Positions 3,110 through 7,466 of a stretch of 64,000 nucleotides of DNA are shown in pieces (positions within the stretch are counted from its first letter, which is position 1; each line of letters starts with the position of its first letter). Location of the stretch: positions 1,922,001 through 1,986,000 of the forward strand of contig NZ_CP084528.1 in the NCBI RefSeq assembly GCF_020410745.1, in the 5' to 3' direction. The translations under genes were made by a program, and so were the position numbers. Origin of the DNA: Kaistella polysaccharea. GTDB taxonomy: Bacteria; Bacteroidota; Bacteroidia; Flavobacteriales; Weeksellaceae. The notes under the pieces are model-generated. The model saw only the letters and a list, made by a program, of their open reading frames with translations. It was not told where the DNA came from and ran no database searches.

Positions 3110-3802
3110 TTAAACTGTCAGTACAGCCTGCCAATATTCAAAAGTCTTTTTTTCTCCTGTATCTAACGTAAAATCAAATGAAGTTTTAGTCGTTTCCGAA
3201 ATTGAAAACTTAACTTCCTTCTTAAATAAGCCGCCGGCATAAGATAATGTGTGATACTCCCCATTTTCTCCGCAAACATCGATATTCTTCGGAAATGAGT
3301 TGATTAAATTTTGGTCTAAATCTTTTCCAATAAATGTTTCATCTAATAGATCGGCTTGAGTAACAATGATTTTTGATTGAATTCCGGATCCTAAAAAATC
3401 GTCGATTACTTCCTGCGATGTTTTTTCCCAAAGTGGTTCTACAACTTCAATTCTTAAAGGCTGAAGTTTGCTTTCCCGATATGCTTTGACGTCTGATAAA
3501 AAGATATCACCAAAAATAAAATGCTTCACGCCTTGTTCTTTAAAATGAGTGACTGCTTCTGCCATTTTCTCCTCGTAATTTTTCAACATTGTAGAAGATG
3601 TGACCGCGTACAAAGGGATGCCAATACTTTCGGCCTGTCTTTCTAATATTTCCAAAGGAATAGAATGCATCGAAGATTTTTGAGTTTCTTCATTCATAGT
3701 TGTCAGTAATGCAATGACTTCAAATTCTTTTTCTTCCAGAACTTTCTGAAGTGCTAAAGCAGAATCTTTTCCGCCACTCCAGTTGAAAACTGCTCTTTTC
3801 AT
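3110..3802 (-). CDS. Dph6-related PP-loop ATP pyrophosphatase
   Basis: 230 residues. The N-terminal SGGKDSA motif (residues 9-15) is the PP-loop that binds ATP and forms an adenylated intermediate. Overall layout matches the diphthine-ammonia ligase (Dph6/MJ0570) family, including the conserved FGDIFL and GENGEYHT elements. Bacteria do not make diphthamide, so bacterial members are of uncertain substrate; an amidation or thiolation reaction on a small molecule or protein is plausible. It lies 74 bp downstream of the HEPN gene on the same strand, but its base composition resembles the core genome, so a functional link to that module is doubtful. Confidence 0.8.
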   Translation of the reverse strand: MKRAVFNWSGGKDSALALQKVLEEKEFEVIALLTTMNEETQKSSMHSIPLEILERQAESIGIPLYAVTSSTMLKNYEEKMAEAVTHFKEQGVKHFIFGDIFLSDVKAYRESKLQPLRIEVVEPLWEKTSQEVIDDFLGSGIQSKIIVTQADLLDETFIGKDLDQNLINSFPKNIDVCGENGEYHTLSYAGGLFKKEVKFSISETTKTSFDFTLDTGEKKTFEYWQAVLTV

Positions 3803-3876
3803 TGAGTACGTGAATTTAAATATTTTCCTTTCCGCTGGCTACGATTAATGTTTTCTTATGCATGTGTTTTATAATA

Positions 3877-4893
3877 TTAGCATACTTTGAACTTCATTGT
3901 ATCTTTAATTTTTTTGTCTACTTTAATACCAATATCAACATTTTCATTTTCGATTGTATTTAATATGCTGGTTTTGTTATGTTGAATATTCAAAATATTA
4001 GTGTAAAATATGCTTGGAAAGTGATTGTCAGATTTAACTAATATTTTAGTTTTTTTGTCTATTATTCTTCCTTTTGTATTAAAACATAAGATCTCTTTAT
4101 TAAAAATACTAATAACCTCAATATCGTTATTGTTAAGCTCGTAAATTTTAGACAAATAACTACAATTTATTAATTCAAATAACGATTTAGAAAAGATTTT
4201 CATAAAATCAATATAGTCAAATAGTATAGTCTTATTTATCAGCTGAACATTAATTACGCCATGTGCTATATCATTTCTTAAATCACAAATATGTTCAACA
4301 ATTTGAAATACAATGGTATTCTTTTTTGATGAAAAATCTGAAACATTATTTTCTAAATAAGATTTTAAGGGTTCATATTGTCTGACTAAACTTGAAAAGT
4401 TTTTAATTCCAATTTCTGTAAAATAGTTGTCAATTACTGATATCCTAAAATTAGCACTATGATTTAGAAAGGCTTCAATATTAAGGACAGGAGAGTTTTC
4501 GTTTATGTTATTGTGTAAGATTTCAACTAATTTCTCTGGTCTTAAATTTTTATTCTTTCTATAATCTAGTTGTTTTAATATTTCTAATGTTTTATTTAAA
4601 TTGTTTTTCTGTATTTCTTCAGGCAAAGAATTATAGGTTGTTGTTATTGCGCAAATGTTTTCTAAATATTTAGATATTAATTGCTCAATAAAATGTTCAT
4701 ATGCTCCATATATAGAAATAATATGAGAGCTAAAATCAAACTGCTTAATTTTTGAAATTGTCAAAGTTTTCAGAACAGTGTCTGGGTTATGTTTTTCAAT
4801 TTTTGATTGATTTTTATAACTTCTATTTTGAAAATCTATGTAATACTTAAGCAAATCCATTTCTATTTGAAATTCACTTAATATTTTATTCAT
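3877..4893 (-). CDS. HEPN-type protein (MAE_28990/MAE_18760, RiboL-PSP-like), putative RNase effector
   Basis: 338 residues, AT-rich and very rich in Asn, Ile and Lys. Two hallmarks of a HEPN fold are visible: a helix with AYEHFIEQLISKYLE at 64-78 and the catalytic-type motif RNDIAH at 206-211, which fits the R-x4-H signature of HEPN ribonucleases. This arrangement resembles the MAE_28990/MAE_18760 family of HEPN-like nucleases. The C-terminal ~110 residues look beta-rich and are unrecognised. The start codon overlaps the end of the DUF262 gene by 8 bp, implying translational coupling. Inferred role: RNA-cleaving toxin or abortive-infection effector. No membrane segment or signal peptide. The family call is by motif and context only. 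Confidence 0.65.
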   Translation of the reverse strand: MNKILSEFQIEMDLLKYYIDFQNRSYKNQSKIEKHNPDTVLKTLTISKIKQFDFSSHIISIYGAYEHFIEQLISKYLENICAITTTYNSLPEEIQKNNLNKTLEILKQLDYRKNKNLRPEKLVEILHNNINENSPVLNIEAFLNHSANFRISVIDNYFTEIGIKNFSSLVRQYEPLKSYLENNVSDFSSKKNTIVFQIVEHICDLRNDIAHGVINVQLINKTILFDYIDFMKIFSKSLFELINCSYLSKIYELNNNDIEVISIFNKEILCFNTKGRIIDKKTKILVKSDNHFPSIFYTNILNIQHNKTSILNTIENENVDIGIKVDKKIKDTMKFKVC

Positions 4894-6094
4894 TGATGAA
4901 GGAGTTTATATATTCATTGAGTATTTCAATTCTATCTATGACTTTTGTTTTATTAGTATCACGTCCTTTGAATGCATCGTATTCCGTTTTGTGAAAATTT
5001 TCTAAACCAGATATAATTTCTTGCTTTTTAGTCAATATTTTTTCCTTACTATCAAGGTTGTTTGCTAAAACTTGCATAAGTGGGTCGTACAAAATTTTTG
5101 TAGGTCTTTCATAGTGAAACCATTTTTCTTCTCTATTTCTATGAAGCCAAAAAGCTTTCTCTTCAAATAAATTGTAGGCAAATTCTACAGTTTCATTAAA
5201 TGTTTTTTTCAAGTTATCTAAAACGTCATCATTAAATTGTTCATTACCCTTTTTAAGAAATTCATCTAAAAAGAACTCCATTGTATTTCCTTGCCATTGA
5301 TCAATTTGTCTATAGGCAAAAAATCTCAGTACAAGTTCTGCATCAGACATATCTTTAAAATACTTATCTTCAATTACTTGTTGGCGAGGTTGACCTGTTG
5401 TTAATTCTGTTTCATCAGGTTCTGGAATATCCCATAGTCTGCAAAAATATTTGTTTCGTGATAGAACTATTGTTAAATTGTTAAGACCACCAGGAAATAA
5501 AGCATTTCTAATTTCTTGAGCTTTTAATTTTTCACCACCACTATTTATTCTTTCAAAAACCAATTGCTTTAATCTATTAGCTTCTGTTTCCGATTTAGCG
5601 GTTTCTTGTAATAAAATTATTGAAGAAATATATCTTCTATCAATACCTTTTCTTATTTGATCTGGTAATTCAGAGTATTTTAAACCATTTAATTCCTTCC
5701 ATTCTGCTAAATCTTGTAAAGCAAATCTATCTTCATAGAATTGCGAAATTGCAGTTAATCTTTGAAGTCCGTCCATTACTTCATAAACTGAATATTCACT
5801 TTCATATAGAAAAATTGGGGGAATAGGAACATTCATAATAAATGATTCAATTAATTTTGATTTTCTTGTAGCATCCCATCTATGTCGTCTTTGAAATTCT
5901 GGATTAAGAATATAATCATCGCTATTTACCATAGTGACAATTGTATTTAGTGGATAACGAGCTTGTTCAGTAATAATCCTTACTTCGCCTTTTTTATACT
6001 TTTCGTTGATTTCGTCGTTCGTCAACTTAATTTCATTTTCATTATCTTGTTGAAATAATTCAACTTTTTCATTTTCGTATAATTGGTTATTCAT
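4886..6094 (-). CDS. DUF262 (GmrSD N-domain/ParB-like) protein
   Basis: 402 residues. The DUF262 domain occupies about residues 40-210: PEFQRRHRW at 65-73, a DGLQR motif at 108-112 in the place of the DGQQR NTPase/nuclease motif of GmrSD-type enzymes, and FERINSGGEKL..QEIRN at 180-197. The C-terminal half is helical, and no DUF1524 HNH nuclease motif is visible, so this is a stand-alone DUF262 protein rather than a full GmrSD enzyme. It is the first gene of a two-gene unit with the HEPN protein. DUF262 domains are known from modification-dependent restriction and other phage-defence systems; here a sensor or regulator for the HEPN partner is inferred. The AT-rich composition contrasts with flanking genes. 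Confidence 0.85.
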   Translation of the reverse strand: MNNQLYENEKVELFQQDNENEIKLTNDEINEKYKKGEVRIITEQARYPLNTIVTMVNSDDYILNPEFQRRHRWDATRKSKLIESFIMNVPIPPIFLYESEYSVYEVMDGLQRLTAISQFYEDRFALQDLAEWKELNGLKYSELPDQIRKGIDRRYISSIILLQETAKSETEANRLKQLVFERINSGGEKLKAQEIRNALFPGGLNNLTIVLSRNKYFCRLWDIPEPDETELTTGQPRQQVIEDKYFKDMSDAELVLRFFAYRQIDQWQGNTMEFFLDEFLKKGNEQFNDDVLDNLKKTFNETVEFAYNLFEEKAFWLHRNREEKWFHYERPTKILYDPLMQVLANNLDSKEKILTKKQEIISGLENFHKTEYDAFKGRDTNKTKVIDRIEILNEYINSFINE

Positions 6095-6225
6095 TTTATT
6101 TTTATTTGTTAATGGGAAATATCATACAACTCCTTTTCATTTATTACAAAATATTACAAAGCCACCTAATATAGGTCTACATATTTGACAACAATATTAT
6201 ATTATCTAATTGCTAAAATACCAAA

Positions 6226-6253
6226 AATTCCTCTTGAAAAATCAAAAGGAATT
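6226..6253 (-). terminator. Hairpin terminator downstream of mnmA
   Basis: Arms 6226-6232 and 6247-6253 (7 bp, with extra TGA/TCA pairing inside the loop), followed on the minus strand by a T-rich tract. It separates mnmA from the DUF262/HEPN unit. Confidence 0.55.
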
Positions 6254-6278
6254 ATATTATTAATTAAAAATCAGGATT

Positions 6279-7466
6279 TTACGAAATCACGCCACTTCCC
6301 ACCAACTCATCCTCCAGATACCAGGCAGCAAACTGTCCTTCTGCAATCGCAGATTGTGGGTTTTCAAACTCGATAAAGAAACCTTCTTCAAATTGGTAAA
6401 GCGTCGCTTCTTCCAAAGTTTGTCGGTATCGGATTCTGGCTTTTACTTTCATCGATTCGCCATTTTGCAAACGCAAATCTTCACGAATCCAGTGAACTTC
6501 TGAGTTTTCTATTTTTAAAGCGCTTCTGAAAAGTCCCGGGAAATTTCTTCCTTCGCCTACAAAAACAATGTTTTTTTCAATATCTCTGGAAATCAAAAAG
6601 CAGGATTCTTTATGTCCGCCAATTCCCAAACCTTTACTTTGACCCACCGTAAAATAATGTGCACCCTGATGTTTGCCAATTACTTTTCCGTCCGATTTTT
6701 CGTAGTTGAGTTTCTGAGACAGGAATTCCAATTCTTCTAATTTTGAAGAAAACTCAGGCGTTTCTTGATGAAAACCAGTGAAATCATTAAAAATTTCTAC
6801 AATTTCGCCTTCTTTCGGTTCCAGTTGTTGTTGCAGAAAAGTCGGTAAACTCACTTTCCCGATGAAACATAAACCCTGCGAATCTTTTTTATCTGCCGTC
6901 ACCAAACCCATTTCCCGGGCGATTTCCCGAACTTCAGGTTTCGTCAATTCCCCAATCGGAAACAACGATTTCGACAACTGATCCTGATTCAACTGACAAA
7001 GGAAATACGACTGATCTTTATTGTTATCTGCTCCCGCTAAAAGGTGAAAAATCTCTTTTCCATTTTCATCAAAAGTAGAGTTCACCTGTGCGTAATGTCC
7101 TGTTGCAACTTTCTCAGCACCAAGCGATAAGGCTGTTTTCATGAACACGTCAAACTTCACTTCACGGTTACACAAAACATCAGGATTCGGCGTTCGGCCT
7201 TTTTTATATTCCTCGAACATATAATCTACGATTTTCTCCTTATACAGTTCACTCATATCAATGACCTGATAAGGGATTCCCAGTTTTTGCGCCACCATCA
7301 AAGCATCATTACTGTCCTCAATCCAGGGACATTCATCCTCCAAAGTTACCGACGCATCATTCCAGTTTCGCATAAAAAGCGCCACCACTTCATGACCTTG
7401 TTTTTGCAGCAAATAGGCTGCAACACTGGAATCTACACCTCCAGAAAGTCCAACTACAATTTTCAT
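6279..7466 (-). CDS. mnmA: tRNA 2-thiouridine(34) synthase MnmA
   Basis: 395 residues, the usual length for the bacterial family plus a modest insertion. MnmA adenylates U34 of tRNA-Lys, -Glu and -Gln and transfers sulfur from a persulfide. The PP-loop SGGVDSS is at residues 8-14. The two catalytic cysteines are C99 (VLCNREVKF) and C200 (DSQGLCFIG). The C-terminal beta-barrel (ARIRYRQ and following) is complete. The start codon gives [10 protein letters not shown] directly, as expected. It appears monocistronic, with a terminator after it and a 313-bp region containing a dispersed repeat before it. Confidence 0.97.

Follow-up and report, generated by a model that had tools for sequence, protein, structure and literature searches.

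PD-T4-2 is an experimentally supported phage defence system that protects Escherichia coli, its native strain included (PMC9519451), and a review places it both under DUF262 and under the PF18735 family of HEPN proteins (PMC10952713). A 2013 survey of HEPN proteins describes those with an Rx4H motif as a family of RNases and reports the Ribo L-PSP-HEPN and MAE_28990 families in an operon with ParB (PMC3710099). In the type IV restriction systems GmrSD, BrxU, SspE and GrwAB, DUF262 is described as sensing modified DNA (PMC10952713, PMC12137116). Here we analyse a pair of neighbouring genes for a DUF262 and a HEPN protein in Kaistella polysaccharea (contig NZ_CP084528.1, positions 1,922,001 to 1,986,000; this stretch of 64,000 nucleotides is called the window). 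Judged from sequence, the pair looks like a distinct candidate branch of the known DUF262 + HEPN kind of defence, with a longer effector. We favour, with moderate confidence, a laterally moving two-gene defence system in which a BrxU/GmrS-like DUF262 sensor gated by nucleoside triphosphate (NTP) controls a HEPN RNase in trans.

The gene pair and its conserved motifs

Both genes are encoded on the minus strand, with the gene for the putative NTP-gated sensor or regulator (DUF262, GmrSD_N, ParB/Srx-like; 402 amino acids; 4886..6094) upstream of the gene for the putative RNase effector (HEPN, RiboL-PSP/MAE_28990 type; 338 amino acids; 3877..4893). The DUF262 stop and the HEPN start overlap by 8 bp (ATGAATAA, 4886..4893, minus strand), and both open reading frames and the overlap were found where a sequence-only reading of the window had placed them. 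The overlap has the same length in six of six close relatives (L010-L015) and measures 11 bp in a seventh (L016). That reading had also described the module as rich in AT and in Asn, Lys and Ile, which agrees with its GC content of 0.263 compared to 0.368 for the whole window. Both genes rank lowest in GC content among the 46 non-overlapping open reading frames of at least 150 amino acids in the window, and the HEPN protein ranks first in its share of Asn, Lys, Ile and Phe (0.423).

The HEPN protein matches the Pfam families PF18735 (HEPN_RiboL-PSP, 1.5e-18) and PF18737 (HEPN_MAE_28990, 2.4e-8), with a further sub-threshold match to DUF5063. The Rx4H motif noticed before, RNDIAH (residues 206-211; 4261..4278, minus strand), is borne out by an alignment of 26 HEPN proteins, drawn from near and remote pairs and including the window. 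R206 and H211 do not vary in any of its 26 rows, and M1 is the only other invariant column. The window protein thus combines a HEPN profile with the conserved Rx4-6H motif. Its AlphaFold2 model is helical (predicted local distance difference test, pLDDT, 92.4), with R206 at the end of a helix (residues 197-210) and H211 adjacent to it. When the whole model was searched with Foldseek, the matches listed covered only residues ~249-338, that is, the C-terminal domain, with one viral HEPN model at rank 13 (E 0.056). Since the fold search was filled by the C-terminal domain, the HEPN fold is assigned from the Pfam profiles.

For the DUF262 protein, PF03235 (GmrSD_N/DUF262, 1.4e-28) is the only Pfam family found. 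In an alignment of 49 DUF262 proteins, eight residues are invariant, and these belong to the three motifs that have been named for the DUF262 nucleotide pocket, QR, DGQQR and FxxxN (PMC12137116). They are Q68 and R69 (5888..5893), D108, G109, Q111 and R112 of DGLQR (residues 108-112; 5759..5773), which corresponds to the DGQQR of GmrS-type DUF262 except that L replaces the first Q, and F180 and N184 of FERIN (residues 180-184; 5543..5557), all on the minus strand.

Comparison to known defence systems

In PD-T4-2 of E. coli ECOR65, a DUF262 gene is likewise followed by a gene for a PF18735-type HEPN protein, and the logic that we propose below is alike. We judged this likeness via PADLOC profile models rather than the ECOR65 sequence. 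The window DUF262 protein matches component A (PD-T4-2_A, PDLC04027, 5.7e-33), although its best model is NsnA (PDLC03877, 1.8e-64, residues 15-401). Searched up to an E value of 1, the HEPN protein matches no PADLOC family and thus misses component B (PD-T4-2_B, PDLC04028); nor does any protein of the window genome match this model at E up to 0.001. As component A matches whereas component B does not, the window pair does not strictly count as PD-T4-2. Furthermore, the window HEPN protein has 338 residues including an additional C-terminal barrel, whereas the PD-T4-2_B model has 168 positions. A pair that does match this model is found in another genome of the Bacteroidota (L097), where a DUF262 protein of 373 amino acids is followed by a HEPN protein of 168 amino acids with the motif RNRAAH (PD-T4-2_B, 8.3e-51).

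The sequence-only reading had ranked the pair as the best candidate for an undescribed system. This has to be given up, since PD-T4-2 itself consists of DUF262 and a RiboL-PSP-type HEPN protein and the association already appears in the 2013 survey. The passages of the survey on these families give neither a mechanism nor a test and mention no translation-factor-like barrel (PMC3710099).

The high score of NsnA points to Menshen (NsnA/NsnB/NsnC), with which the window pair shares an NsnA-type DUF262 sensor. In Menshen, however, DUF262 is paired with an AAA protein (NsnB), as seen at another locus of the same genus (L003), whereas the neighbours in the window are mnmA, the HEPN gene and a Dph6-like gene. 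We therefore reject an identity with Menshen.

With GmrSD, BrxU, SspE and GrwAB, the window protein shares the DUF262 fold and the three pocket motifs, and BrxU is the best PDB alignment of its AlphaFold2 model (pLDDT 82.7). The pair differs from these systems in that its effector is a separate HEPN protein and that the Pfam scan detected no DUF1524 His-Me nuclease domain in either protein. It is conceivable that HEPN has simply replaced DUF1524 in a GmrSD-like restriction system, acting on phage DNA or transcripts only and giving direct immunity with the cell unharmed. The sensing of modified DNA by the DUF262 of the four systems would fit such a role, but HEPN proteins with Rx4H are a family of RNases and no methyltransferase or other self-marking gene adjoins the window pair. 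We consider restriction of this kind improbable.

Lateral transfer of the pair as a unit

In seven of seven genome contigs with a close relative (L010-L016; DUF262 identity to the window 72-94%), the HEPN gene lies directly 3' of the DUF262 gene, whereas the flanks vary. The identities of DUF262 and HEPN in these pairs are 94/88, 87/77, 87/77, 86/77, 83/70, 81/70 and 72/36%. In the six genomes that carry L010-L015, mnmA shares 57-67% identity with its counterpart in the window, compared to 81-94% for DUF262 and 70-88% for HEPN. The closest copy, in Flavobacterium muglaense (L010), shares 89.2% DNA identity over 2242 bp, a similarity that begins 21 bp upstream of the DUF262 start and ends 2 bp downstream of the HEPN stop. 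Because the module identity is far above that of mnmA and the DNA similarity to L010 stops at the gene ends, we conclude that the pair was acquired laterally. The conserved DNA also bears on whether the window copy might be a non-functional remnant left behind by transfer, for which the lack of an attC-like border (see below) could speak. Both frames are intact, all motifs and the overlap are kept, and the whole module retains 89% DNA identity to L010; a remnant is thus very unlikely.

Within the genus, the distribution is patchy. Among 36 genomes, a close copy was found in the window genome only, so that the vertical inheritance at this locus that would have spoken against a mobile unit was not seen. 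One other genome (G033) carries a diverged pair (L002, 48% and 25% identity for DUF262 and HEPN), and two further genomes have weak, stop-ridden HEPN matches. In a phylum-wide sample, DUF262 was matched at E up to 1e-20 in 23 of 395 genomes, and three of these (the window, L076 and L077) have a long-HEPN partner according to the labels assigned as described in the next section. No relative was found on viral contigs, which were searched with two short patterns. In the record of Vibrio phage 10N.286.55.A5_PE003 (L021), a DUF262 gene (61.7% identity over 94%) paired with a RiboL-PSP-HEPN gene adjoins a repressor gene.

Partners on the DUF262 tree

To relate DUF262 lineages to their partners, we used a tree of 39 rows that were collected with the window DUF262 as query, five of them long-branched; the tree omits three short, doubtful or fused proteins (L008, L088, L093) and five near copies (L012, L013, L015, L018, L020). 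Twelve rows, including that of the window, are paired with a long HEPN protein and form one group (support 99/96), where the partner labels were assigned by Pfam and BLAST together with protein length (315-377 amino acids for long HEPN, 153-248 amino acids for short HEPN). A separate group (support 99/96) comprises 11 rows paired with AAA proteins, as in Menshen. The third group consists of three rows beside EcoRI-type methylases, and the remainder are 13 short-HEPN rows. The PD-T4-2-like L097 is found among the latter, on a long branch and outside the long-HEPN group. Three partner changes are sufficient on this tree. In three other genomes of the genus (L006, L007, L008), a distant DUF262-like gene adjoins a gene for an EcoRI-type adenine methyltransferase, and L009 has a related DUF262.

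The mnmA-dph6 site

The pair lies between mnmA (6279..7466, minus strand; PRK00143, 1e-130), a core gene present in 36 of 36 genomes of the genus, and a Dph6-like gene (3110..3802, minus strand) that reaches 93.1 of the 197.3 bits of the archaeal Dph6 model and is thus below the cut-off. The border on the side of mnmA is a stretch of ~67 bp after this gene that contains an inverted repeat (6212..6278, no strand assigned). It is kept in several genomes of the genus, with an identity of 91-98.5% over 67-89 bp in G007, G029 and G030, and some bases before dph6 are also common to other genus genomes in the alignment.

We compared the mnmA region in 16 of the 35 other genomes. A dph6 match downstream of mnmA is present in seven of these (G023, G030, G006, G007, G029, G033 and G031), where the open reading frame of G006 has only 61 amino acids, that of G023 is split in two and that of G031 is missed by a stricter test. 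In the remaining nine, dph6 was not seen within the part of the region that was listed. All eight syntenic genomes, the window included, have a different insert in the mnmA-dph6 interval (3110-7466 in the window; L060-L075), which agrees with the earlier suggestion that the pair is foreign at this site. Five of the seven other inserts contain defence-type genes according to PADLOC and Pfam: a DRT-type reverse transcriptase (Drt6, 4.6e-162) next to a 308-amino-acid protein without Pfam match, the two genes of the G030 insert (L061); PDC-M68B (1.5e-31)/DUF2326 in G006; SLATT_5 (8.3e-51) in G007; DUF262 and DUF1524 in G033; and DzbA (1.1e-46) in G031. The same searches gave no clear defence gene in G029 and G023. 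The mnmA-dph6 interval is thus a small hotspot of accessory genes in the genus, and a literature search for a hotspot at mnmA gave no match. In G023, the 3' end of mnmA is present twice, and the additional copy (residues 288-395, 89% identity; L060, G023:C2:747647-747970) flanks the insert; this duplication hints at a possible route by which inserts arrive.

Links to integrons

Integrons have been reported in Bacteroidota (PMC8618304, PMC9668308), and two Science papers from 2025, as cited in PMC13092281, concern defence genes in integrons. Three relatives of the window pair lie near an integron integrase (TIGR02249, cut-off 265 bits). In two Gammaproteobacteria (L017, 394.3 bits; L018, 397.4 bits) the integrase is located 2-3 kb before DUF262, and on the Shewanella plasmid pS19502 (L025, 368.6 bits) the distance is 490 bp. 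Complementary ends of 9-11 bp surround the module in seven of 14 relatives (L010, L012, L013, L016, L017, L018, L020), with equally long ends in 1-13 of 500 shuffles; ends of at least 9 bp were not found in L011, L014, L015, L019, L021, L025 and L076. The ends vary from copy to copy, as the R''/R' of attC would give. The bottom-strand folds of the putative attC have z-scores of -2.0 (L012), -5.7 and -3.7 (L016), -2.2 (L020) and -1.1 (L018), so that the fold alone does not separate every putative attC from shuffles.

The copy in L016 is part of an integron-like array of ~43 kb, in which 18 similar 5' half sites of the attC-like type share the strand of most genes; 3' half sites, counted in L016 itself only, number four. 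The array ends beside a 382-amino-acid Xer-like recombinase with 204 of 265 bits, below the integron-integrase cut-off. It is located on a contig of a metagenome-assembled genome of the Flavobacteriaceae (CAJYAG010000002.1, ~540-585 kb) and includes L109, L110 and L111. The window copy has no complementary module ends beyond an 8-bp A/T-rich match and no half sites near the module, and no integron integrase over the cut-off was found in the window genome.

Small, overlapping and moving together, with relatives that are integron cassettes beside IntI and one on a conjugative plasmid, the two genes could also form a toxin-antitoxin system. HEPN toxins are common in such systems. The HEPN protein would then be the toxin, bound or modified by the DUF262 protein as its dedicated antitoxin, and the main role of the pair would be to stabilise mobile DNA, with any phage defence being secondary. 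A complete nucleotide pocket would be superfluous for a plain binding antitoxin, however, and members of this DUF262 family are also partnered with AAA proteins, as in Menshen, and found beside defence genes. As the hotspot cargo of related genomes is also defence-like, we regard a toxin-antitoxin role as unlikely, if less so than direct restriction. A defence-type unit with a HEPN effector, as the sequence-only reading proposed, remains in our view the best reading.

The C-terminal barrel

The C-terminal domain of the HEPN protein (residues 254-338; 3880..4134, minus strand) is modelled as a beta-barrel with the fold of the EF-Tu domain II type, known from translation proteins. Homology to domain II of EF-Tu, EF-G or TypA receives no support from profile comparison. 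With hhalign, the barrel matches GTP_EFTU_D2 with a probability of 0.09-0.22%, and 14-34 of 60 column shuffles score equally high; the barrel profile contains 24 rows from 30 loci, after dropping two loci without clean translation and four of the other 28 on the wrong strand. The C-terminal family of U32 peptidases was matched in one of 31 genomes, below the cut-off, and yielded no alignment for comparison. It may be, though we hold this combined proposal to be doubtful, that the barrel binds to the tRNA acceptor end or to the ribosome, that the NTP switch of DUF262 triggers the cleavage of tRNA or ribosome-bound RNA and that the pair spreads as an integron-type cassette among marine Bacteroidota and Gammaproteobacteria.

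Proposed mechanism

For the two-gene defence system, we infer the following course, from the signal to defence itself. The DUF262 protein would be a BrxU/GmrS-like NTP-binding sensor without a nuclease domain of its own that holds the HEPN protein inactive. It would respond to a signal associated with phage, for which unusual or modified phage DNA (compare GmrSD, BrxU, GrwAB and SspE) is the likeliest candidate and another fixed ligand an alternative. NTP binding or hydrolysis would then release the HEPN RNase in trans. The RNase might cut cellular or phage RNA and thereby halt the infection, with the cell itself probably being sacrificed.

Several points weigh against this mechanism. Over 280 residues, the BrxU alignment has a root-mean-square deviation of 13.1, which means that the domains of DUF262 are arranged differently or poorly predicted. 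Neither model matched a PDB entry in Foldseek at E up to 0.001, no sequence-related solved structure was found (alignment A4, a lone chance match at 0.23; alignment A5 of the 49 DUF262 proteins, none at E up to 1), and the AlphaFold2 models are of single chains, not complexes. The HEPN protein misses PD-T4-2_B, and to our knowledge no member of the long-HEPN clade has been tested. Lastly, DUF262 is better conserved than HEPN in all seven close pairs, which is unexpected for a sensor in an arms race with a phage protein; this higher conservation fits a fixed ligand better.

DUF262 proteins precede several effectors, among them DUF1524, AAA and HEPN proteins. How the signal passes from a DUF262 sensor to a separate protein is presented as not settled in a review of the field (PMC10952713). 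The pair analysed here provides a compact and well-bounded case of this kind, with a nuclease-less sensor, an effector in trans, motifs that are kept in both proteins and a sensor lineage that predicts the effector. In addition, the mnmA-dph6 site can be mined for more defence genes. If it is true that the barrel guides the HEPN protein to tRNA or ribosomes, this would provide a concrete rule for how a HEPN toxin is targeted.
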